In this document: piece by piece, positions 23,968 through 25,549 of the stretch | Numbering within the stretch: position 1 is the stretch's first letter | Layout: each line of letters opens with the position of its first letter | DNA from: Microcoleus sp. CAWBG506 | GTDB lineage: Bacteria; Cyanobacteriota; Cyanobacteriia; Cyanobacteriales; Microcoleaceae | Direction: 5' to 3' | Assembly (NCBI GenBank): GCA_020883125.1 | Contig: JAHREW010000003.1 | Coordinates: forward strand, 1-64,000 | Length of the DNA stretch: 64,000 bases | Notes under the pieces: model-generated | Told to the model about the DNA's origin: nothing | What the model saw: only the letters and a program-made list of their open reading frames with translations | The model's database searches: none | Program-made: the position numbers and the translations under genes

Positions 23968-24972
23968 TCAGCAATCCTGTTGATATTGCAGTGCTAAATC
24001 TTCGATAAGTTCAACCATTGCGCGAACCATCGGCATTTTAGTGAGAATTTCGATCCAATACCACTGTCCGTTGGGATTGAGTTCGATAAAATAAAGCGTG
24101 TCGTCATCGTCGCGAATGATGTCGAATGCACCAAAATGTAAGCCGAAATCGTCAAGCATTTGATGAAGTTTGTTGAGGTAATCTATCGGCAAATTGTCGG
24201 GAACGTGAACGAGTTTGTTTGGTTCGGTGACTCGCCAATCTAAGGTCACATCTGCATCGTTAGTATGTTCGGCATCAATGCGACAAACAAAACTTTGCTT
24301 ACCAATTAATGTAACGCGATACTCTGCCTTCTTTTGAATGCGTTTTTGAATAAAAACAGGTGCCAATCGAATGCTGTCTCGAAATTCCTCAAGTGTTTCG
24401 ACATCAATGGGGCGAGTATAACACGCATACTGCTTGTCATTATGTAAAAAACCAGAGTAGCGCATCGGTTTGACAATGCACTTTCCCTGTTCTGTCACAA
24501 AGTTGCACGCAGCATCGTAGGAATTTGTGACGAGTGTTGGAGGGATAGTAATTCCGAGTTTTTGAGCAATTGGGATTTGGTTGATGCGATGGGATGGCAA
24601 TCTAATTTTGTAGTAGTTATTGACCCACTTTGCTTTAGGATATAAGCCAGACAGAGAGTACATCAAAGATTCTGTTTCTTCTTGACAATACTTGATTGCC
24701 CAAGCATCATCAACTTCGGGAAATACTTGATAGTCGTTAGGTTTACGCCACCAAATTACGCCGATTTCTTGAGCTTCTTTCAAGGAGTCTTCAAAAGACA
24801 AAAAACTTTGACTGGGATGGCCCAAAGCTTGCCACGAGTAAGCATATTTGCTTTTTTTAATAAAACTTTCTGAATTCAATCGAATTGCTCGAATATTTGA
24901 TTTTTGCAATTCGTTGATAACGACATCTGCATGAATGTCTGTCTCGGAAGTCACGATTAAAAGGTCAGTCAT
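23968..24972 (-). CDS. Graspetide ATP-grasp ligase (MvdC/MvdD family)
   Basis: ATP-grasp peptide ligase of the microviridin/marinostatin maturase family. These enzymes activate Asp or Glu side chains of a precursor and join them to Ser/Thr (omega-ester) or Lys (omega-amide), making side-chain macrocycles. The N-terminal part begins LLIVTSETDIHADVVINEL and has GVIWWRKPND near residues 71-80, a region conserved in MvdC/D. The ATP-grasp fold runs from about residue 120, with KCIVKPMRYSGFL, PVFIQKRIQKKAEYRVTLIG and the metal-binding end FIELNPNGQWYWIE. The length of 334 residues is typical. The candidate precursor gene lies 200 bp upstream on the same strand with a hairpin between. Only one ligase and no acetyltransferase or transporter is nearby, unlike the classical microviridin cluster. 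Confidence 0.9.
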   Translation of the reverse strand: MTDLLIVTSETDIHADVVINELQKSNIRAIRLNSESFIKKSKYAYSWQALGHPSQSFLSFEDSLKEAQEIGVIWWRKPNDYQVFPEVDDAWAIKYCQEETESLMYSLSGLYPKAKWVNNYYKIRLPSHRINQIPIAQKLGITIPPTLVTNSYDAACNFVTEQGKCIVKPMRYSGFLHNDKQYACYTRPIDVETLEEFRDSIRLAPVFIQKRIQKKAEYRVTLIGKQSFVCRIDAEHTNDADVTLDWRVTEPNKLVHVPDNLPIDYLNKLHQMLDDFGLHFGAFDIIRDDDDTLYFIELNPNGQWYWIEILTKMPMVRAMVELIEDLALQYQQDC

Positions 24973-25090
24973 ACTATTTTAGATTTGAGATGGGAAATTA
25001 TGGATTATGTATGGGTTTCGAGCTTGTATGCGGTTGGATTTTTTTTGAAAGTGGTATCGCAATCAAACTAATTGAAATAAAGTTGACAGT

Positions 25091-25127
25091 GAAAGACCTG
25101 TCATGCAAAAATTAATACAGGTCTTTC
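25091..25127 (-). terminator. Hairpin between graspetide precursor and ligase genes
   Basis: GAAAGACCTGT at 25091-25101 pairs perfectly with 25117-25127: an 11-bp stem with a 15-base loop. It lies between the precursor stop (25173) and the ligase start (24972). No long T-run follows on the minus strand, so a leaky attenuator or an RNA-stabilising hairpin that keeps precursor mRNA in excess over ligase mRNA is likely (inference). Confidence 0.65.
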
Positions 25128-25172
25128 AAGAACATAAAGGGCGATCGAATTATTTCTTAGTAATTCAAAAAT

Positions 25173-25391
25173 CTAGTCGTCCTCTTGCTGGTCGTCATCA
25201 CTAGGTTCAAACCACTTAAAAGTGGAGCCACTAACAGTACACCAGGAGCCGCTCATGGAGGTGATGTTGGAAGTCTGGGTGCTGGGATCGTAGCTAGCTT
25301 GCTCTTGGGAGATGTTGTACTTGGGCAAGATGCTCAGGTGCATCATCAAAGGATTTGCTTTTTTGTCGAGAGCGAGCTGGGTAGTCGTCAT
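25173..25391 (-). CDS. Graspetide (microviridin-like) precursor peptide
   Basis: A 72-residue peptide encoded directly upstream of the ATP-grasp ligase. The first half (LALDKKANPLMMHLSILPKY) looks like a leader. The C-terminus reads SGSTFKWFEPSDDDQQEDD, with donors Ser54, Ser56, Thr57 and Lys59 followed by acceptors Glu62, Asp65-67, Glu70, Asp71 and Asp72. Microviridins have the core TxKYPSDxE; here Thr-Phe-Lys and Pro-Ser-Asp are kept, but two extra residues (WFE in place of Y) separate Lys from Pro-Ser-Asp, and the tail is much more acidic. The leader lacks an obvious PFFARFL helix. There is no secretion gene nearby. The ring pattern cannot be inferred. The ATG at 25391 has no strong ribosome site. 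Confidence 0.85.
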   Translation of the reverse strand: MTTTQLALDKKANPLMMHLSILPKYNISQEQASYDPSTQTSNITSMSGSWCTVSGSTFKWFEPSDDDQQEDD

Positions 25392-25456
25392 AACTTAATT
25401 TTTATTGAGTGATGGTTTGACACTCACAACAATACAACTTGCACATTGATTTGTAT

Positions 25457-25549
25457 AGTCGAAAAAAGTCGAAAAAAGTCGGATAATGTAGAAAATCTTA
25501 AGACCGATTCAACCGTTTTTGTATTTAAGGCGAAAATAGTCGGATATTG
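25457..25549. promoter_or_regulatory. Helically phased AGTCG direct repeats in a divergent promoter region
   Basis: AGTCG recurs at 25457, 25467 and 25477, exactly 10 bp apart, separated by A-runs. A fourth copy is at 25538, where a 12-base block (AGTCGGATATTG) repeats the third copy's AGTCGGATAATG with one difference. The array lies between the divergent graspetide precursor (start 25391) and the small HTH gene (start 25591). One-turn spacing suggests several subunits of a DNA-binding protein on one face of the helix. The HTH protein at 25591 is an obvious candidate, but binding is inference. Confidence 0.55.

Follow-up and report, generated by a model that had tools for sequence, protein, structure and literature searches.

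A probable single-ligase graspetide module in Microcoleus with a divergent putative regulator and a 10-bp-phased promoter array

What is made by a short peptide gene that is followed by one ATP-grasp ligase gene in a cyanobacterium, and what controls it? The question is raised by a locus in the window analysed here, a stretch of 64,000 nucleotides (bases 1-64000 of one contig) from a Microcoleus assembly of 6.03 Mb that is 95.7% complete. Graspetides, a class of crosslinked peptides, attract interest as protease inhibitors, and the control of their gene clusters appears to have been little studied. An earlier note on this DNA had described a 72-aa precursor followed by an MvdC/MvdD-like ATP-grasp ligase, and both ORFs proved to be real, judged by their coordinates, profile matches and conservation. 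Its description of a minimal two-gene cluster captured precursor and ligase correctly but missed a divergent regulator gene and a repeat array that belong to the locus as well (Table 1). Judging from sequence comparison, we propose that the whole is probably a regulated graspetide module, in which a regulator, an RNA hairpin, the chemistry of a single ligase and processing in trans would act together. The regulatory part is the aspect likeliest to surprise a specialist, with the third gene and the repeat array being new here.

Table 1. Parts of the module and their positions in the window.
Feature	Position	Strand	Description or evidence
Precursor peptide gene, 72 aa	25173..25391	-	ORF; precursor alignment; TIGR04186, 14.1 bits (cut-off 25)
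Precursor leader			PLMMHLSI, residues 14-21; YDPSTQTSN, residues 34-42
Precursor core			Hydroxyl-rich strand SGSWCTVSGST, 47-57; variable loop FKWFEPS, 58-64; acidic tail DDDQQEDD, 65-72
Graspetide-type ATP-grasp ligase, single, 334 aa	23968..24972	-	Pfam, NCBIfam, solved relatives, tree
Divergent helix-turn-helix-like putative regulator, 160 aa	25591..26073	+	Locus-conserved
Three direct repeats, 10-bp period	25457..25481	-	CGACTTTTTT CGACTTTTTT CGACT; presumed operator
Two-unit array, regulator side, 10-bp period	25528..25543	-	CCGACTATTTTCGCCT
Precursor promoter-like site	25429..25457	-	-35 TATACA fused to third repeat, 17-bp spacer, -10 TATTGT
RNA hairpin between precursor and ligase genes	25090..25128	-	12-bp stem; same place in relatives

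Searching 388 genomes of the order, we found the family ligase (called at 52% identity or more and an E-value below 1e-100) in 17. The precursor profile matched 19 genomes, namely 14 with this family, three with precursors of the family treated below as family C (G309, G326, G130) and two with internal stops (G024, G210). The co-occurrence check proposed in the earlier note thus gave a favourable answer, with all 14 precursor genomes being among the 17 that hold the ligase. The two genes are adjacent in 13 of the 14; in G208, both lie near contig ends. The ligase stands without the precursor in three genomes: at a contig end (G365), with a stop near a contig end (G130) and as a remnant with stops (G033).

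Signs of decay were seen as well. Beyond the ligase, the window carries a gene for an HD-domain protein on the other strand, and shorter ligase remnants adjoin this same gene at L093, L095, L026, L028 and L030, as does the G033 remnant (L094). At L093 (7421-7892), the last 294 nt of the ligase sit directly beside 182 nt of the regulator, while at L094 (4537-5401) a regulator remnant of 149 nt lies 62 nt from what is left of the ligase, about two thirds of it; neither array nor precursor was found at these two decayed loci.

For a view of gene sharing, ORFs of at least 70 aa were clustered over 19 loci. One gene besides precursor and ligase, and no other, was common beyond the loci of Microcoleus type: the divergent 160-aa regulator, present at 14 of the 19. 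Four of the five loci without it have 96-234 upstream bases (L006, L008, L013, L014), those of L008 amounting to 201 and holding the end of another precursor; at the fifth, L012, the same protein type recurs in divergent position as a fusion with an NB-ARC NTPase. In G208 (L046), the divergent gene encodes an HTH protein that is sigma70-r4-like and also matches AAA weakly. The divergent position is constant in several genera, and the outer neighbours are not common to them.

Similarity to known DNA-binding domains is faint. The window protein reaches 17.5 bits against HTH_23 in Pfam (residues 122-149), below the cut-off of 24.6, and the stand-alone regulators generally show weak HTH_23 or sigma70_r4 similarity, all of it below cut-off. 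In its own genome, the HTH-NB-ARC protein L114 has an N-terminal domain that resembles the window regulator. No credible solved relative of the regulator was found, and none of the four proteins compared with defence-system models matched them. Searching its own genome with the regulator gave 30 matches including itself, that is, 29 paralogues; 17 of the 30 are open frames of 457-514 aa, the one scanned (L114) being the NB-ARC protein. The paralogue loci (L110-L128) are spread over contigs C37, C21, C66, C6, C1 and others. A tree groups 13 regulators from module loci in a single clade (95/89) that excludes 18 paralogues of the window genome.

All 14 divergent regions carry three direct repeats with a 10-bp period on the precursor side. 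At 14/14 loci, the third repeat ends in a -35-like hexamer, which a 17-bp spacer separates from a -10-like hexamer, the hexamers being the best over four offsets and four spacers. On the regulator side, the pattern used detected a two-unit array at 11 of the 14, not finding it in L010, L025 and L092. The window array had 0 matches in 100 shuffles, and when the pattern was relaxed slightly, it had a single site in the genome. The pattern YGACTTTWTNCGACYTTWTTCGRCT, which was written from eight of these loci so that its presence there is largely by construction and only its absence elsewhere is a test, occurs in 12 of the 388 genomes with one site each and is absent from the 371 genomes outside the 17 with the family ligase. 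Eleven of the sites are beside the precursor; the one in G343 sits on another contig, at its end, as would result from contigs breaking within a tandem precursor pair. Three of the 371 array-free genomes (G277, G228, G109) carry short ligase remnants. The five ligase genomes without the array are G365, G130 and G033, together with G189 and G208, which have other or fused regulators.

The phasing was scored as the lag-10 self-match of upstream regions against 300 shuffles. In the present family (family A), 13 of 14 loci had at most one shuffle as good, and L015 had 13. No clear signal was obtained at the fused kinds L012 (37) and L046 (230), nor at the family C locus L079 (157), where the regulator was not found. 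Upstream regions of five microviridin-type loci had their lag-10 scores met by 6 to 96 of 100 shuffles. We also tested the regulator's paralogues, 18 of the 19 loci fetched for the 29 (L127 gave no tblastn match at 1e-4). Their upstream regions passed p 0.05 at lag 10 in 17/18 cases, compared with 4/44 for other window genes, with mean z peaking at 3.64 for lag 10, followed by 2.56 for lag 20, and none of the other lags between 6 and 30 exceeding 1.1. Upstream of the 44 window genes, it is self-matches at lags 7 and 14 that stand out (mean z 1.43 and 0.91); these are perhaps heptamer repeats, which are known from cyanobacteria.

The best family-A array match falls on the same relative strand in 18/18 paralogue upstream regions. 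Near versions, with 3 to 6 mismatches of 25 and 0/200 shuffles as good, precede L110, L111, L112, L113, L116, L117 and L126, the closest being L117 with 3; others are more divergent, with 9-10 mismatches (e.g., L118, L119, L121, L124). None of the 19 paralogue loci has the family-A unit pair in exact form. We had entertained a private array for each regulator and dropped this idea in view of the seven near versions. With the remaining arrays being different, the units make up a related, diversified set in which cross-reading is possible, and the module's array may not be private to the module.

The same data feed the most serious rival reading, in which the divergent gene regulates itself without controlling the precursor, or several members of its protein family read the array. 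Phased repeats precede nearly all paralogues tested though the genome has one such ligase, so that an array can serve a regulator gene alone, and the near versions of the module's array would suit shared reading. What argues for control of the precursor is placement: the regulator keeps its divergent position in several genera whose outer neighbours are unshared, and likewise beside three other graspetide families, while the three-unit array abuts the precursor promoter and most loci have a second array toward the regulator. We therefore regard autoregulation or cross-reading as rather unlikely to be the whole account, and precursor control by the divergent regulator as the better reading.

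A second putative control element lies in the 200-nt gap between the precursor and ligase ORFs. An RNA stem-loop is present there in the window and in each of eight relatives examined (9/9 loci), its z-scores ranging from -2.4 to -6.6; the stem sequence is partly or wholly different in L010, L011, L012, L015 and L091. This hairpin could set the precursor-to-enzyme ratio. As to maturation, neither a methyltransferase nor a peptidase-transporter or HlyD protein was seen among the flanking proteins scanned. A genome-wide look for a peptidase or transporter, as the earlier note had recommended, did turn up three C39-peptidase matches elsewhere in the genome, but none that is tied to the module; such peptidases could act in trans on leader removal and export.

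The nature of the product has to be judged from the precursor family. We aligned 15 precursors, leaving out those with truncated (L005), frameshifted (L009) or tail-less (L025) cores, each beside a readable ligase, as well as L006 and L013, which lie at contig ends and lack a precursor, and L014, since L046 already represents its genome. Invariant in the leader and middle part are M1, L8, P14, L15, M16, M17, L19, I21, Y34, Q39, S41 and M46, so that PLMM, which begins the window leader motif PLMMHLSI, is found in 15/15. In the core, S49, W50, S56, D65, D67, E70, D71 and D72 are invariant in all 15, and position 57 is always a hydroxyl residue; position 51 holds Cys (13 precursors) or Ser (two), and position 52 is Thr in 11. 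Positions 58-64 are variable, the loop ranging from 3 to 10 residues. The precursors thus share a strand rich in hydroxyl residues, SW[C/S]...S[S/T], followed by the variable loop and then an acidic tail; a chance ORF was rejected on the strength of the conservation. L002 has a tandem pair of precursors whose differences fall mainly after residue 50. At its very start (L008:1-35), the L008 contig holds the end of another precursor (EPSDDDQQEDD), which makes a tandem pair like that of L002 seem likely in its genome as well. No plasmid relative of the precursor was matched, and the window genome gave no convincing second precursor, the three other matches having E-values of 0.16 to 0.93 and internal stops.

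Microviridins have a core motif of the TxKxPSD type. The earlier note had pointed to TFK and PSD in the window precursor, where the letters are indeed present with three residues between them, a spacing that we take to be two residues more than in microviridins, but the resemblance is not conserved in the alignment: TxK occurs in 5/15 and PSD in 3/15 precursors, both inside the loop or at its edge. Because this loop is hypervariable and changes in length, an amide through that Lys cannot be the common chemistry of the family. The tail, said to hold eight Asp/Glu in its last eleven residues (EPSDDDQQEDD in the window precursor), contains seven. A pairing of T52/S56 with D67/D71 would match the four-residue spacing of fuscimiditide; since T52 is Thr in just 11 of the 15, we do not claim this ring pattern. 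The prevalence of Cys at position 51 leaves a slim chance that a native omega-thioester is formed.

The ligase itself matches ATPgraspMvdD in Pfam with 33.9 bits (cut-off 27). Its NCBIfam scores all fall below cut-off, with 208.7 bits for TIGR04187, the best match there (cut-off 350), 171.7 for TIGR04185 (MvdC, 425) and 157 for TIGR04184 (MvdD, 475). It is homologous along its length to five distinct solved sequences (5ig8, 7m4s, 7mgv, 5ig9, 9bou), of which 5ig8 and 5ig9 are presumably MdnB/MdnC-type structures. E297-G302 (ELNPNG) is invariant across 13 aligned relatives, and comparisons with close relatives gave a dN/dS of 0.10-0.12 in six cases and 0.22 in a seventh (L009), L010 having no finite dS. 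The closest relatives among the genome contigs searched, L002-L009 with 83-93% identity, come from Microcoleus and unclassified Oscillatoriales/Microcoleaceae. In a tree of 48 ligases (without L006, L008 and L013), the cyanobacterial family forms a clade of its own on a long stem (16 rows, support 100/100), and the MvdC/MvdD pairs (12 rows, 100/97) and TgmB (6 rows, 100/98) form others. A second ligase of the same kind was not found in the 6.03-Mb, 95.7% complete assembly, in keeping with the earlier proposal that one enzyme would do all the linking.

An enzyme of this kind might instead add residues or cyclise in another way (RimK-like or head-to-tail) without side-chain crosslinks. Such activities occur in this ATP-grasp subfamily (PMC8939145, section 3); yet donors and acceptors are conserved around the variable loop, as crosslinking would have it, and we consider the alternative unlikely. 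Against it there is also the fact that the closest solved relatives of the ligase presumably include graspetide synthetases. Still less probable is a system of the TgmA/TgmB type (actinobacterial GRASP_targ) that forms an aspartimide-containing graspetide. TIGR04187 is the best NCBIfam match of the ligase, precursor residues 29-53 weakly align with TIGR04186, and in both cases a single ligase comes after the precursor; both scores are nevertheless under cut-off, the six TgmB rows are a separate clade, and beyond the ligase there is the oppositely oriented HD-domain gene, with no methyltransferase among the flanking proteins scanned. Finally, the earlier interpretation as a microviridin variant, in which TFK and PSD form the usual lactone/lactam cage with two extra residues, can be set aside as very improbable, for although the window strain has these letters and its ligase is related to MvdC/MvdD, the hypervariable loop holds or borders them, the leader lacks PFFARFL, the one ligase of the genome is outside the MvdC/MvdD clade, and no such regulator was found at E 0.1 beside 5/5 MvdC/MvdD-clade ligase pairs (L084-L088).

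We thus return to a regulated single-ligase graspetide. In this scheme, the regulator would bind the phased repeats in the shared promoter and control precursor and ligase as well as its own gene, with the hairpin adjusting the ratio of the two products. The ligase is predicted to recognise the PLMMHLSI leader region, to phosphorylate Asp/Glu of the acidic tail and to join them to Ser/Thr, or possibly Cys, of the SW[C/S]..S[S/T] strand. A hairpin with two or more omega-ester rings around the variable loop would result, and the loop, which differs between strains, should carry specificity, going by the conservation pattern and by characterised graspetides. Leader removal and export would probably occur in trans, e.g., by one of the C39-peptidase candidates, and by analogy the activity may be protease inhibition.

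A broader reading, to which we would give even chances, is that a large cyanobacterial regulator family, with its 30 matches here, reads 10-bp-phased arrays before its own genes; at least one member is fused to NB-ARC (STAND) as in bacterial conflict systems, and others stand at four single-ligase graspetide families, so that graspetide production would be one output of a partly cross-talking regulator network. In a published survey, the neighbours counted were those of the same directon (PMC8939145, section 7), and by such a count a divergent regulator would be missed. The module offers a testable regulator-array pair that might switch on a silent cluster. Its loop variants are natural variations of a single scaffold, and its regulator gives access to about 30 likely DNA-binding proteins of the same genome, with 10-bp-phased units as their presumed recognition rule. 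We found no description of the precursor family, the divergent regulator or the phased arrays in the literature consulted, which included the available parts of PMC8939145, PMC13097080, PMC12291112, PMC9576775, PMC11119718, PMC7159879 and PMC8195603; this precursor/ligase family may already have been placed in a published graspetide network.

How does the module compare with known systems? It has the hallmarks of graspetides: an ATP-grasp ligase of the MvdC/MvdD-like subfamily and an adjacent precursor with a conserved leader, a Pro-hydrophobic-hydrophobic motif of the kind that serves as a rule for graspetide precursors (PMC8939145, section 5) and a core of Ser/Thr/Lys and Asp/Glu. A minimal cluster is not unusual in itself, since graspetides made by a single ligase are well known. 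In plesiocin and thuringinin, one enzyme makes all linkages (PMC8939145, section 3), fuscimiditide is another single-ligase case (available text of PMC12291112), and some of the 24 earlier and 19 new graspetide groups counted in 2026 consist of just ligase and precursor (PMC13097080, section 7). The cyclised motifs of plesiocin are repeated (PMC13097080, section 5), and its likeness to the module is the single ligase. In fuscimiditide, the stem-loop is linked through Thr3-Asp22 and Thr7-Asp18, and the module's order of donor strand, variable loop and acceptor tail resembles it (PMC12291112, available text). TgmA/TgmB/TgmC and fuscimiditide-type systems likewise share with the module one ligase, a weak similarity before the core, and donors N-terminal and acceptors C-terminal of a loop. 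They differ in that the module falls below their family cut-offs, forms its own cyanobacterial clade and has no methyltransferase beside the ligase; a methyltransferase follows TgmB in 5/6 plasmid loci viewed, two being annotated merely as methyltransferase domain proteins.

Microviridins (graspetide group 1, MvdC and MvdD) are alike in being cyanobacterial and in having a leader-core precursor beside an MvdC/MvdD-like ATP-grasp ligase. They have a PFFARFL leader, their own core motif and two ligases, whereas the module has PLMMHLSI, one ligase from a separate clade and the divergent regulator; the peptidase-transporter and HlyD protein seen at a Nostoc microviridin locus have no counterpart in the module flanks scanned. 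Taken together, the comparisons suggest that the module is a relative of the microviridins and not a member, probably a hairpin graspetide of the known single-ligase kind.

Similar in organization are three further single-ligase cyanobacterial graspetide families, each with its own leader, core and repeat unit: B (L016, L017, L018, L021, L029), C (L089, L075, L076, L052, L079) and D (L080-L082). The contig of L018 is filed as Flavobacterium and its graspetide locus is nearly identical to cyanobacterial L016; it is probably mis-binned. With the module, the three families share a YDP/YNPxxQ stretch, one ligase, an acidic C-terminal part and, at 12/13 loci, a divergent gene of the same type (B 5/5, counting L018; C 4/5; D 3/3), the regulator not being found in the available bases of the family C locus of G309 (L048/L079). 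At 5/5 loci from other phyla (L019, L020, L023, L024, L027), this regulator type was not found at E 0.1. Phasing at lag 10 was equalled by 1, 1, 2 and 1 of 300 shuffles in family B, by 0, 0 and 1 in family D, and in family C by 54 (L089), 10 (L076), 11 (L052) and 0 (fourth locus). The families differ from the module in the letters of leader and core and in having other 10-bp repeats in the same place, the units being CGACTTT in A, CCCAC/T in B, CCACTAAA in C and CCGTATTT in D.
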